A stretch of DNA of 64,000 nt from Abyssibacter profundi (GTDB taxonomy: Bacteria > Pseudomonadota > Gammaproteobacteria > Nevskiales > OUC007): NCBI RefSeq assembly GCF_003151135.1, contig NZ_QEQK01000002.1, positions 218,972-282,971 on the forward strand, in the 5' to 3' direction. Made by a program: the position numbers and the translations under genes. This document shows positions 20,730 through 32,292 of this stretch, piece by piece (position 1 is the first letter of the stretch; the number at the start of each line of letters is the position of its first letter). The notes under the pieces were generated by a model. That model searched no databases and was not told where the DNA came from. It saw only the letters and a list, made by a program, of their open reading frames with translations.

Positions 20730-20750
20730 GTCGCACCGATGCGGTGCGAC
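20730..20750. terminator. perfect hairpin after ccmI
   Basis: GTCGCACCG-ATG-CGGTGCGAC is a perfect 9-bp stem with a 3-nt loop, 49 bp after the ccmI stop. No T-run follows, so it may act with Rho or stabilise the 3' end rather than be a classic intrinsic terminator. Confidence 0.5.
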
Positions 20751-20789
20751 GACTCACCGAGTCAGGGCAGTTTGCTACGCGCGACTGTC

Positions 20790-20813
20790 GCAGTGTGGCC
20801 AGGCCACCACTGC
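20790..20813 (+). promoter_or_regulatory. hairpin in the galU leader
   Basis: GCAGTGTGGCC and GGCCACCACTGC pair around a single A with one bulged base. It lies 37-60 bp before the galU start. It could be a leader structure or an operator dyad, and nothing links it to a known regulator. Confidence 0.3.
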
Positions 20814-20849
20814 GCGAACAATGACAACGTTCAACTAAAAAGGATAATC

Positions 20850-21749
20850 ATGCGACTACGCAAAGCGGTCTTTCCTGTGGCGGGTTTGGGCACCCGGTTT
20901 CTTCCGGCGACCAAGGCAAATGCCAAGGAAATGCTTCCGATCGTTGACAAGCCGCTCATCCAGTACGCGGTGAAGGAAGCCGTCTCGGCAGGTGCCGAGG
21001 AACTGGTTTTCATTACCAGCAATAACAAGAACTCGATTCTCGATCATTTCGACAAGTCCTACGAGCTGGAAAAGCAGCTGGAGGAGAAGGGTAAGACTGC
21101 CCTGCTGCAGGAGGTGCGCGACATCCTGCCGCCTGGCATCACCTGTGTGTACATCCGTCAGCCTGAAGCCCGCGGCCTGGGCCACGCCATTTCCTGCGCC
21201 TGGACAGCGGTGGGCGATGAAGATTTCGCCGTCATTCTTGCCGACGACCTGATCGACGGAAAGCTGCGTCCCGCGCTGGCGCAGATGCAGCGTGTTTATC
21301 AGGAGTACGGCACCAGCGTTATTGCCGTGCAGCGCGTTCCCAAGGATGAGGTGCACAAGTACGGCATCGTCGAGGTTGAGCCGGTCGGACCTGGCCTGGG
21401 CGAGATTCGCGGCATTGTTGAGAAGCCGGATCCGGACAAGGCGCCGTCGAATCTGGCCGTGGTCGGTCGTTACATTCTGACCCCGCGCATCTTCAAGCTG
21501 CTGGAGTCAACCGAGCCGGGCGCCGGTGGAGAGATTCAGCTCACCGATGCCATCAGTGCCATGATTCAGGAACAGACGGTGTTGGCCTACGAGTTTGAAG
21601 GCAAGCGCTATGACTGCGGCAGTAAGCTGGGTTACCTGCAAGCCAATGTGGAATTGGGTCTGAAGCATCCGGACCTGGCCGATGAATTCCGCGAGTATCT
21701 GGGCGAGCTGACCGCCAGCTGGCCGCGCGACGAGAAAAAGTCTGCCTAG
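20850..21749 (+). CDS. galU: UTP--glucose-1-phosphate uridylyltransferase
   Basis: GalU makes UDP-glucose for envelope polysaccharides and osmoregulated glucans. It has 299 residues and a nucleotidyltransferase fold starting AVFPVAGLGTRFLPATKA, with KEMLPIVDKPLIQYAVKEA and later GIVEKPDPDKAPSNLAVVGR. The ATG at 20850 has AAGGAT seven bases upstream and matches the family N-terminus; the frame stays open upstream without support. Its product feeds opgG-dependent glucan synthesis (41863). Confidence 0.95.
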   Translation: MRLRKAVFPVAGLGTRFLPATKANAKEMLPIVDKPLIQYAVKEAVSAGAEELVFITSNNKNSILDHFDKSYELEKQLEEKGKTALLQEVRDILPPGITCVYIRQPEARGLGHAISCAWTAVGDEDFAVILADDLIDGKLRPALAQMQRVYQEYGTSVIAVQRVPKDEVHKYGIVEVEPVGPGLGEIRGIVEKPDPDKAPSNLAVVGRYILTPRIFKLLESTEPGAGGEIQLTDAISAMIQEQTVLAYEFEGKRYDCGSKLGYLQANVELGLKHPDLADEFREYLGELTASWPRDEKKSA

Positions 21750-21779
21750 GAAGCTGCAGCCCTAGGGACGCACGGATCT

Positions 21780-21861
21780 TTCGCGCCGCCCAGTTGCTGC
21801 CTGCAATCAGGCTAGGCAAGTCGCGCGACGCGAAGTCTGGTCATTCCAGATGGACGACGAG
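21780..21861 (-). repeat. dispersed palindromic repeat, copy B (82-bp core)
   Basis: In reverse orientation this stretch aligns over 82 bp with 31287-31368, with 69 identical positions by hand count. Both copies hold two small hairpins. One is GCCTG/CAGGC with different loops. In the other the arms change together (TTTGG/CCAAA in copy A, TCTGG/CCAGA here). GGAAGC at 21749 may be a remnant of the terminal repeat. The far end is replaced by the galU terminator. Confidence 0.8.
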
Positions 21862-21862
21862 A

Positions 21863-21885
21863 ACGGCCCCGCGAGGGGCCGTTTT
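21863..21885 (+). terminator. intrinsic terminator after galU
   Basis: ACGGCCCC-GCGA-GGGGCCGT, an 8-bp GC-rich stem with a GNRA-type loop, followed by a short run of T. It directly follows repeat copy B. Confidence 0.8.
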
Positions 21886-28378: not shown

Positions 28379-29122
28379 ATGGCAGGTCATTCCAAATGGG
28401 CGAATATCCAGCACCGCAAGGGCGCCCAGGATAAGAAGCGCGGCAAGCTCTTCACCAAGCTGGCAAAAGAGATCACGGTGGCGACCCGCATGGGTGGCCC
28501 GGATCCGGATTCCAATCCACGCCTGCGGCTGGCGATCGACAAGGCCAAGGGTCAGTCACTCCCCAAGGACAACATCGAGCGCGCCATCAAGCGTGGCTCC
28601 GGTGCCATGGAAGGAGACGACTACGAGGAAATCCGTTATGAAGGCTACGGTCCCAATGGCGTGGCCGTCATGGTGGACTGCCTGAGTGATAACCGGAATC
28701 GCACGGTGTCGGATGTGCGTCATGCCTTTACCAAGCATGGCGGTAATCTCGGCTCGGATGGCTCGGTGGCCTATCTGTTCAATCGCTCGGGTGTGATCGT
28801 CTTCAGTGAGGGAGACGAGGCGCTGGAGGAACAGGTCATGGACATTGCCCTGGAAGCCGGGGCCGAGGACATCACGACCAACGAGGATGGCTCCATCGAA
28901 GTCCTGACCCCGCCGGATGCCTACGAGACTGTCCGCGACGCCCTGAAGGCGGCGGGCCTGGAACCGGCCCATTCGGATATCACGATGCTGGCGACGACCA
29001 GCGTCGCCCTGGATTCGGAGCAGGCCGAGACGCTGACCCGGCTGATCGATGCGTTGGATGATCTGGATGATGTCCAGGACGTCTATTCCAACGCAGAGTA
29101 TCCCGATACCGAGGCAGCCTGA
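28379..29122 (+). CDS. yebC: YebC/PmpR-family protein (TACO1 family)
   Basis: A 247-residue protein opening [18 protein letters not shown], the invariant N-terminus of the YebC family. It also has [19 protein letters not shown] and FNRSGVIVF. Members act at ribosomes on proline-rich stretches or have been reported as DNA-binding regulators. The gene begins 12 bp after the YfaZ-like stop and lies directly ahead of ruvC, its usual neighbour. Confidence 0.95.
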
Positions 29123-29630: not shown

Positions 29631-30220
29631 TTGGTCGCCTCCGGGGGACCCTCATCGCCAAGCGGCCGCCGGTCCTGCTCATTGATGTGGGTGGCGTGGG
29701 CTATGAGGTTGAGGCGCCGATGTCCACGATTTACGAGTTGGGTGACACCGGCAAAGACGTGATCGTGCATACCCACCTGGCCGTGCGTGAGGACGCCCAG
29801 CAATTGTTTGGCTTCGCCACCATTGGCGAGCGGGATTTGTTCCGCGTGCTGATTCGTATCAATGGTGTGGGCGGCAAGCTGGCGCTGGCCATACTGTCCA
29901 CCATCCCGGCCGGCGAGTTCACTCGCGTCGTTGAGGAGGGGGATGTCACCGCCCTGACGCGCGTTCCCGGCATCGGCAAGAAAACGGCCGAGCGTCTGGT
30001 GGTGGAAATGCGGGGGCGTACAGATGCATTGATGGCGCCTGCCGCCGGTGGCGCAGCCATCGAAACGCGACCGCAGGATGCGGCGACAGAAGCCACCGAT
30101 GCGCTGGTTGCCCTGGGCTACAAGCCAGCCGAAGCCGGGCGCATGGTGCAGAAGGTGGCCGGGGCCGACATGGATTCCGAGGCCATCATCCGCGCCGCGC
30201 TGCGGGCGGCCATGCGATAG
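29627..30220 (+). CDS. ruvA: Holliday junction branch migration subunit RuvA
   Basis: The junction-binding subunit, 197 residues. The N-terminal OB-fold starts [15 protein letters not shown] and contains [12 protein letters not shown]. Two helix-hairpin-helix motifs follow ([13 protein letters not shown] and [16 protein letters not shown]), and a C-terminal RuvB-contacting domain has [15 protein letters not shown]. The ATG at 29627 overlaps the ruvC stop. Confidence 0.96.
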
Positions 30221-30227
30221 TCGCCTC

Positions 30228-31274
30228 ATGAACGAGTTCAGCGAGTCTCGCGTTATCGACAGCGCCGCTTCCGGCGAAGAGGCGCGTATTGATCGGGCGA
30301 TCCGCCCCAAGCAGCTGGCCGACTATGTCGGACAGGCGCCGGTGCGCGAACGCCTGGGAATTTTCATCGAGGCCGCGCGGCAGCGTAGTGAAGCGCTGGA
30401 TCATGTGCTGATCTTTGGGCCACCTGGCCTCGGGAAGACCACGCTGGCTCATATCATCGCCACCGAAATGGGTGTCGGGCTGCGCCAGACATCCGGACCG
30501 GTGTTGGAAAAGCCGGGCGATCTGGCTGCGCTGCTGACGAATCTCGAACCCCACGACGTGCTGTTTGTTGATGAAATTCATCGACTCAGCCCGGTGGTCG
30601 AAGAGGTGCTGTACCCGGCGATGGAGGACTACCAACTCGACATTGTGATCGGCGAGGGGCCTGCCGCACGGTCGATCAAATTGGACTTGCCGCCATTCAC
30701 GCTGGTGGGCGCTACCACCCGGGCCGGCTCGCTAACCTCGCCGCTGCGCGACCGCTTCGGCATCGTTCACCGGCTGGAGTTCTACACGCTCGAAGAGCTC
30801 AGCAAGATTGTCACGCGATCCGCCGATATTGTGGGTATGGCGCTGGATGCCGGTGGCGCCATGGAGATCGCCCGGCGCTCTCGAGGCACGCCGCGGGTGG
30901 CCAATCGGCTACTGCGCCGCGTGAGGGACTATGCCCAGGTACGTGCGGATGGCCACGTGACCCAGGCCGTAGCCCAGGCGGCCATGGATTTGCTGGATGT
31001 GGACAAGGAAGGCTTCGACGTGATGGACCGCAAGCTGTTGTCGGCACTGGTGGAGCGCTTTGATGGCGGGCCGACGGGGGTTGAGAGCCTGGCGGCGGCC
31101 ATCGGTGAATCCCGCGATACGATCGAGGATGTCATCGAGCCGTATCTGATTCAGCAGGGCTTCATGCAACGTACACCGCGTGGTCGCCAGGCCACTCGTA
31201 TGGCTTGGTTGCATCTGGGCCTCCAAGCGCCGGCCGGCACGGCCGAGCCGGCGCCGGGTTTGTTTCCGGACTAA
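30228..31274 (+). CDS. ruvB: Holliday junction branch migration helicase RuvB
   Basis: An AAA+ motor of 348 residues. Walker A is [11 protein letters not shown], Walker B FVDEIHRL and sensor 1 [18 protein letters not shown]. The C-terminal winged helix has [13 protein letters not shown]. The frame is open upstream, but the ATG at 30228 is 7 bp after ruvA and matches the family. Its TAA stop touches the inverted-repeat element at 31275. Confidence 0.96.
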
Positions 31275-31383
31275 GGAAGCGCTGAGCTCGTCGCTCATTT
31301 GGAATGACCAAACTTCGCTCCTCGCGCCTTGCCTAGCCTGTCTGCAGGCAGCAACCTAGCGGCGCGAATGAATCAGCGCTTCC
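31275..31383. mobile_element. 109-bp MITE/REP-like element, copy A
   Basis: The ends are perfect 11-bp inverted repeats: GGAAGCGCTGA (31275-31285) and TCAGCGCTTCC (31373-31383). The element is flanked on both sides by CTAA (31271-31274 and 31384-31387), consistent with a 4-bp target duplication, though this could be chance. It fills the whole gap between the convergent ruvB and iaaA stops. Its 82-bp core (31287-31368) matches 21780-21861 in reverse. No ORF is inside, so any transposase would act in trans. Confidence 0.75.
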
Positions 31384-32292
31384 CTAACGGAATACGCTGG
31401 CTTGCACCGGAGCATCTAGCTCGGACCAAGCGCGGAACATCCCCAGGGTGCTCATCGGCAGGCAGACCAGTCCATCGCGATCCACGCCGATCAGGCCGCC
31501 CATGCCGCCACAGTCCACGACTTGCTGAATGACCAACTCAGCAGCGGCGTGCAGGGGCTCGTGACCCAACAACATGCGCCAATGAATCTGGGCAGCGGCA
31601 TTGACGCGGATGAAGGACTCGCCGTGTCCGGTCGTGGAGATGGCGCAGGTCGGGTCGGCTGCCCAGGTGCCGGCACCGATGACGCCCGTGTCGCCGACCC
31701 GACCGGCCGCCTTGTTTGTCATGCCTCCGGTCGAGGTGGCAGCGGCCAGTCGACCTTGGCGGTCGCGGGCCACTGCGCCGACGGTGCCTAAGGGCTCATC
31801 GTGGTCCAGCACGACGGTGGCGCGTTCTCGTGCGCGCTCCAGCTGGCGCAAGCGATTGGCGATGACGAAATAGCTGGGATCTTCCGTGGCCACGTCGAGT
31901 CGGGTACAGGCCGCGTCTGCGTGTGCGCCGGCCAGCATGACGTGTTGTCCGTCGTTGAGCAGGGCGCGGGCGAGCTTCACAGGATTGCGTGGCCGTCGCG
32001 TCGCTGCCACAGCGCCACAGCGCCCTTGACCGTCCATGATGGATGCATCGAGTTCGGCCTCTCCCTGCGTGTTGAGCACCGCACCGCGCCCGGCGTTGAA
32101 ATGCTCGCAGTCTTCCAGCAGACAAACCGCCAGTTCGACGGCGTCCAGGGCGGCCAGCCCGTCCTGCAACGCGCTCTGCACCTGCCGGCCTATGGCCTGG
32201 AGTGCAGCCAGATGCTCGGCATAGCCATGGTCACGCTGCGGCATATCGCCGGCGCCGCCGTGTATTGCAAAGGAAACCGGGTGATGGGACAT
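31384..32292 (-). CDS. iaaA: isoaspartyl peptidase/L-asparaginase (Ntn hydrolase)
   Basis: A plant-type asparaginase/isoaspartyl dipeptidase of 302 residues. It starts with FAIHGGAGDM. The autocleavage site is the Thr in PLGTVGAVARD, which becomes the catalytic nucleophile of the beta subunit, followed by AATSTGGMTNKAAGRVGDT and TTGHGESF. It hydrolyses beta-aspartyl dipeptides and asparagine. The gene is convergent with ruvB and divergent from ybgC, with 85 bp between its start and ybgC. Confidence 0.9.
   Translation of the reverse strand: MSHHPVSFAIHGGAGDMPQRDHGYAEHLAALQAIGRQVQSALQDGLAALDAVELAVCLLEDCEHFNAGRGAVLNTQGEAELDASIMDGQGRCGAVAATRRPRNPVKLARALLNDGQHVMLAGAHADAACTRLDVATEDPSYFVIANRLRQLERARERATVVLDHDEPLGTVGAVARDRQGRLAAATSTGGMTNKAAGRVGDTGVIGAGTWAADPTCAISTTGHGESFIRVNAAAQIHWRMLLGHEPLHAAAELVIQQVVDCGGMGGLIGVDRDGLVCLPMSTLGMFRAWSELDAPVQASVFR

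Follow-up and report, generated by a model that had tools for sequence, protein, structure and literature searches.

The inverted repeats at 21764–21861 and 31275–31383 of the window (the whole 64,000-nucleotide stretch of the Abyssibacter profundi genome analyzed here) are very probably relics of IS5-type MITEs. Our full explanation, in which both belong to a family of non-autonomous transposable elements of IS5 type and have since decayed, is likely to be correct. It is built on homology, TIRs common with IS5 elements, the YTAR duplications of an IS, empty sites in relatives, placement at stop codons and class-wide covariation. We classify the elements as IS5-mobilized MITEs with an unusually conserved fold.

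An earlier note on this DNA had paired 21780–21861 with 31287–31368, and alignment bore this out: the two segments are homologous and in opposite orientation. In a BLAST search of the host genome, the copy at 31275–31385 hit 21764–21861 (98 bp aligned, 82% identical, E = 9.8e-21); the bounds of the pair were widened to 21764–21861 and 31275–31383. On the plus strand, homology of the 21.8-kb copy begins with AGGGACGC at 21764, not at 21780, and ends near 21861, where a terminator-like hairpin of galU starts. This hairpin and its T run (21862–21885, plus strand) abut the relic and lie outside the element; a comparable hairpin follows galU in an element-free relative, G002. The upstream open reading frame (20739–21749, plus strand; stop TAG at 21747–21749) is presumably galU, a name taken from the earlier note and from recognition of the sequence. 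The 21.8-kb copy is degraded and keeps the arm-I end only, its right half and right TIR being gone. At its left border, CTAG (21762–21765) fits the YTAR target consensus drawn from IS copies and would be one half of a duplication whose right-hand copy is gone. The matched arm change described in the earlier note (TTTGG/CCAAA against TCTGG/CCAGA) is real in the alignment, with GTTTGGTCATTCCAAAT in 31275–31383 (minus strand) facing GTCTGGTCATTCCAGAT at about 21836–21852. It is carried by a tip hairpin, GTCTGG TCATT CCAGATG (21835–21853, plus strand), which corresponds to the covarying tip helices of the family.

The partner copy (31275–31383, minus strand) is a 109-bp internal-deletion derivative that retains the arm-I end and the two termini (GGAAGCGCTGA...TCAGCGCTTCC). 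It lies between two copies of a 4-bp target duplication at the overlapping stop codons of ruvB and iaaA. Reading frames and comparison with relatives place the ruvB stop TAA in the left CTAA (31271–31274) and the iaaA stop, TAG on the minus strand, in the right CTAA (31384–31387). The two genes are convergent and each has its stop at the element border: ruvB occupies 30048–31274 on the plus strand, with its true start inside this open reading frame, and iaaA (isoaspartyl peptidase/asparaginase) occupies 31384–32292 on the minus strand. In the original site, ...GACTAACGG..., the ruvB stop TAA would have overlapped the iaaA stop TAG of the opposite strand, and the target duplication would have given each gene its own stop copy. 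Relatives contain the empty sites. In G001, ruvB and iaaA lie side by side without the element, and G002 and G003 lack it behind galU (galU–sucA). Neither window copy is a complete element. A third exact GGTCATTCCAAATG at 28385–28398 falls in the start of yebC (the MAGHSKW codons) and was rejected as a coding coincidence.

The host assembly (G000; 3.74 Mb, 47 contigs) holds 49 BLAST matches to the 31275–31385 copy; in some cases a single element accounts for two of them, one per end. In most copies there are two inverted ends whose matched parts lie 73, 145 or 217 bp apart, and full copies measure 268, 340 or 412 bp. The layout is modular: an A end (100 bp), an optional 72-bp module M1, a core (69 bp), an optional 72-bp module M2 and a B end (about 100 bp). 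TIRs match between ends at 20–22 of 22 positions in most copies. Matched over about 20–33 bp, they close two long hairpin arms separated by a small CCCNNNGGG hairpin, and the tip of one arm is an inverted relative of the tip of the other. The 72-bp modules, each containing small hairpins, occur in L004, L006, L011, L012, L014, L015, L018, L019 and L024–L026. M1 and M2 stand at corresponding positions of the arm tips, and M2 can be aligned to the reverse complement of M1, which makes the two modules inverted homologues; the element is accordingly a decayed inverted duplication. It has no transposase gene and no coding capacity. Shorter derivatives of 49–170 bp retain both TIRs, and contigs of the assembly often terminate within these elements.

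Several single loci were also recorded. L141, L144 and L145 are TIR-only derivatives of 49–60 bp, apparently with the whole interior deleted. A tandem pair of M2-like modules at G000:C1:143843–143996 recalls the boxB arrays of BOX elements. The right end of L020 (near 1840) is directly followed by a second terminal repeat, which looks like the trace of another element inserted or decayed at this point. In L005, the flank to the left of the TIR (1470–1515) repeats the altered left TIR in inverted form, which suggests a template switch or a nested element.

The TIR of the host copies, GGAAACACTGATC, also ends an IS of 1,232 bp that is present in 11 copies in G028, a complete genome from the same order. 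Nine of the 11 have perfect 4-bp YTAR duplications (TTAA, CTAA, TTAG or CTAG), and the transposase is NCBIfam IS5_4 (NF033581). Two other TIR types, AGGG(T/C)CTGTTGACGTTT and AGGGCCTGTTAACACTA, end plasmid elements of the IS5 family (859 and 807 bp) that lie between a T and an A and have transposases of NCBIfam IS5_3 (NF033580). Since the different TIR types match IS5_4 and IS5_3 elements, one interior occurs with the ends of two IS5 subgroups. Searches of the host assembly for unpaired TIRs and for transposase homology found no IS with these TIRs and no homologue of the G028 transposase; a resident IS could be missing from this assembly, whose contigs break inside elements. The TIR pattern gave no IS-length pair in Azotobacter vinelandii CA, and for a P. 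aeruginosa plasmid copy there was no informative record of a same-plasmid empty site. A TIR match on an Acinetobacter plasmid lay outside any inverted pair and was discarded as a chance or coding match. Separately, locus L211 (G001:C284) of a same-genus relative contains a gene for an IS5_4-like transposase (54% identical), its TIRs weaker and beginning TTAAGGA, a possible relative of the mobilizing IS.

Target duplications of the other host copies were CTAG/CTAG, TTAA/TTAA or CAAG/CAAG in several cases and imperfect in many, so that only some copies have a perfect 4-bp duplication. A long reading frame ended exactly on the element junction at 39 of 127 flanks, representing 31 of 91 independent loci (8 on both sides); no other single offset from the junction exceeded 5 in the 91 loci, and frames ran in from both sides at only two of them. 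YTAR carries a stop codon on each strand. We attribute the position of copies 3' of genes to this property, together with selection against insertion inside genes, and the placement therefore needs no 3'-end RNA function. The earlier note had likened copies immediately 3' of genes to REP/BIME elements. The placement holds and copies lie mostly outside genes, but the likeness fails on the length of about 267 bp, the long TIRs, the target duplication and the IS5-type ends.

The family extends well beyond this genome. A 22-base tip pattern matched 83 GTDB stretches, including records of Azotobacter, Stutzerimonas, Pseudomonas, Alcanivorax, Thalassotalea, Algicola, Thiodiazotropha, Methylobacillus and Thiobacillus. 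Elements from these matches differ in sequence and are nearly all 264–269 bp long, some with a 14–29-bp insert; the intact length outside the host genome is about 267 bp. Relatives found by BLAST, in which the pattern was not used, matched in the interior only (query about 31–238) and had TIRs of other types. A covariance model of arm I (R1, E <= 1e-4) found matches in at least 62 of 274 genomes across the class and at least 55 of 222 genera, counts that are lower bounds, with few candidates scored per genome. A TIR-bounded element was present at 14 of 20 loci fetched from these matches, with 15–20 of 20 end bases matched and nearly all lengths between 264 and 280 bp, and TIR ends matched at 20 of 20 bases in many unrelated genera. 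Plasmid copies sit in unannotated stretches, and a search of phage records for the element gave no match. Open-access literature, searched for the element family and for the element and TIR sequences, contained no earlier description; subscription papers and ISfinder lay outside this search.

The earlier note had suggested folding both orientations and running a covariance analysis on collected genome copies. Almost all of a full copy folds, forming a TIR stem, arm I, the small hairpin and arm II, with z-scores of −15.8 as RNA, −15.0 as RNA of the other strand and −15.2 as DNA. The 21.8-kb copy alone folds weakly (z of −1.4 and −2.4), and the window relics are far weaker than the full copy. 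We then aligned 36 distinct elements from more than 20 genera (alignment A2), for which RNAalifold predicts 86 pairs. Two-sided compensatory change was found in 76 of the 86 pairs, so that the compensatory change first proposed from the window pair is genuine and far wider than that pair alone could show. Paired cells made up 92.3%, compared with 65.6% in shuffles and 37–43% with slid partners, and the covariation score was 0.663 versus 0.182, all to be read with the caution that the structure was derived from the same alignment on which covariation was scored. The arms do not vary independently. Most A2 sequences were picked by their exact arm-I tip, and that tip helix is therefore little informative. 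The arm-II tip, free of this selection bias, was 99.3% paired with four of four pairs double-changed, and pattern-independent copies, also free of it, have tips such as CTTGG/CCAAG, TGTAG/CTACA and TTTAG/CTAAA. An Rfam covariance-model search with seven element loci, up to E = 1, returned no family, and an Rfam search of the window returned tRNAs only.

We consider it likely that the fold is maintained as DNA. The main rival account of why it is kept is purely mechanical: template switching during replication would correct imperfect palindromes and leave the arms matched without selection. This account has a substantial, if minority, chance of being right. The two ends of each host copy agree, yet differ between copies; at many positions each of the four Watson-Crick pair types is common, transversions included; and the inverted copy of its left end in the L005 flank is what a template switch could leave. 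The agreement of left and right ends within a host copy covers the outer 20 bp only, with position 23 varying freely, and differences between copies amount to 15% in the TIRs and 4–5% in the arms. End-to-end agreement fits either recognition of a matched end pair by a transposase or local correction. Against a purely mechanical origin, the arms of close pairs (95–99% identical) mostly carry uncorrected one-sided changes (49, versus 3 compensated), TIR positions 22–26 are uncorrected in the same copies, and correction alone leaves the conserved tip sequence and constant length unexplained. Compensated changes increase with divergence, which indicates that arm matching is restored gradually. With arm changes at 95–99% identity mostly one-sided, selection on the fold and mechanical correction of the arms are not separated.

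An alternative in which the element acts as RNA, for example as a structured 3'-UTR or intergenic transcript that stabilizes mRNA, ends transcription or serves as a small RNA (roles suggested for REP and ERIC), with covariation reflecting selection on that RNA, appears improbable. Both strands of the full copy do fold extremely well as RNA, many copies, lying behind stop codons, would be transcribed along with the preceding gene, and ERIC offers a precedent (review, PMC2229807). However, G.U is not in excess over A.C: stems contain 86 G.T and 78 A.C mismatches (counted stem by stem, leaving out one fixed G.T tip pair of 34 cells), and the arms of close pairs 9 and 22. Arm I leans toward G.T and arm II toward A.C; these leanings cancel, as expected if the two halves of an inverted duplication in DNA are equivalent on opposite strands. 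Copies are oriented at random to the upstream gene, with junction stop codons on the arm-I side in 19 cases and on the arm-II side in 17 (p = 0.87). DNA folding is equally extreme, and the element has no Rfam match. The earlier note's proposal of selection for structure in RNA or single-stranded DNA is therefore upheld for compensatory change and not for RNA specifically. Balanced mismatches and random orientation point to DNA rather than RNA, and they fit constraint or correction at the DNA level.

Two further accounts are very improbable. Palindromes of REP/BIME type mobilized by a RAYT transposase would also be intergenic and 3' of genes, but would not explain a 267-bp scale, IS5-type TIRs or YTAR duplication; and a role of the two window copies as conserved regulators of galU and ruvB, instead of mobile insertions, would agree with their position directly behind those genes, but relatives have no copies at the same places and the same sequence recurs at dozens of unrelated sites.

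The intact element is an inverted duplication of about 267 bp with matched TIRs around two hairpin arms. In the mechanism that we favor, IS5-family transposases would act on these TIRs in trans and insert the element at a short target, which is YTAR in this lineage. Insertion at a gene end with duplication of YTAR would leave the stop codon intact, and copies would accumulate right behind genes. The most probable reason for the fold would be that the folded DNA itself is maintained, as a cruciform or as a single strand at replication. The fold might bring the two TIRs together for a borrowed transposase, and slippage at replication, by correcting one arm against its partner, may help to keep it. 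A use of the fold in transposition is a tentative suggestion. Equally speculative is a broader picture of class-wide selfish DNA, in which a branched cruciform body of fixed length is conserved, its ends are swapped to suit different IS5 transposases, and the fold aligns the ends to promote mobility.

It is unusual for a non-coding mobile element to covary as strongly as well-known structured RNAs do, to be absent from Rfam and to be carried by about a quarter of sampled gammaproteobacterial genera. Covariation alone is no proof of RNA. If the fold does act as DNA, the family would offer an example from nature of selection acting on the shape of a cruciform or single strand, and would show MITEs outliving any one transposase by changing their ends. 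The stop codon that YTAR holds on both strands offers a simple reason for IS5-type elements to pile up at gene ends.

Like REP/BIME sequences, the element is palindromic, extragenic and often 3' of genes. REPs are palindromes of 20–40 bp without IS5-type TIRs or a 4-bp duplication, a unit size that an element of about 267 bp does not share. With IS5-family IS (NCBIfam IS5_4, IS5_3) it shares the same TIRs, and YTAR is duplicated around the IS of G028 just as CTAA is around the window copy; unlike them, it lacks a transposase, and its unrelated interior is common to lineages with different IS5-type TIRs. Among known MITEs, RUP of Streptococcus pneumoniae has IS630-Spn1 TIRs, a length of 107 bp, a TA target and a range of one species group (PMC3049150, PMC2229807). 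Both are non-autonomous and intergenic, with TIRs matching a resident type of IS; the element described here differs in being about 267 bp long, IS5-type, two-armed and class-wide. As in RUP and other MITEs, the TIRs are those of a known IS, coding capacity is absent and relatives have empty sites; the present element differs by its branched fold, its constant length, its class-wide range and its exchangeable ends. ERIC/IRU is a gammaproteobacterial MITE of 127 bp with a short TIR (7-bp), palindromic and placed between genes, and co-transcribed with its neighbors in reported cases (PMC2229807). Our element is likewise a palindromic gammaproteobacterial MITE between genes and is set apart by its length, its variable TIRs and its branched two-arm fold. 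Finally, BOX of S. pneumoniae has two fixed ends and optional internal modules (PMC3049150). Optional modules recur here, as 72-bp units in the arm tips; sequence, host and IS type are different, and the modules stand at matching sites of the two arms as mutually inverted homologues.
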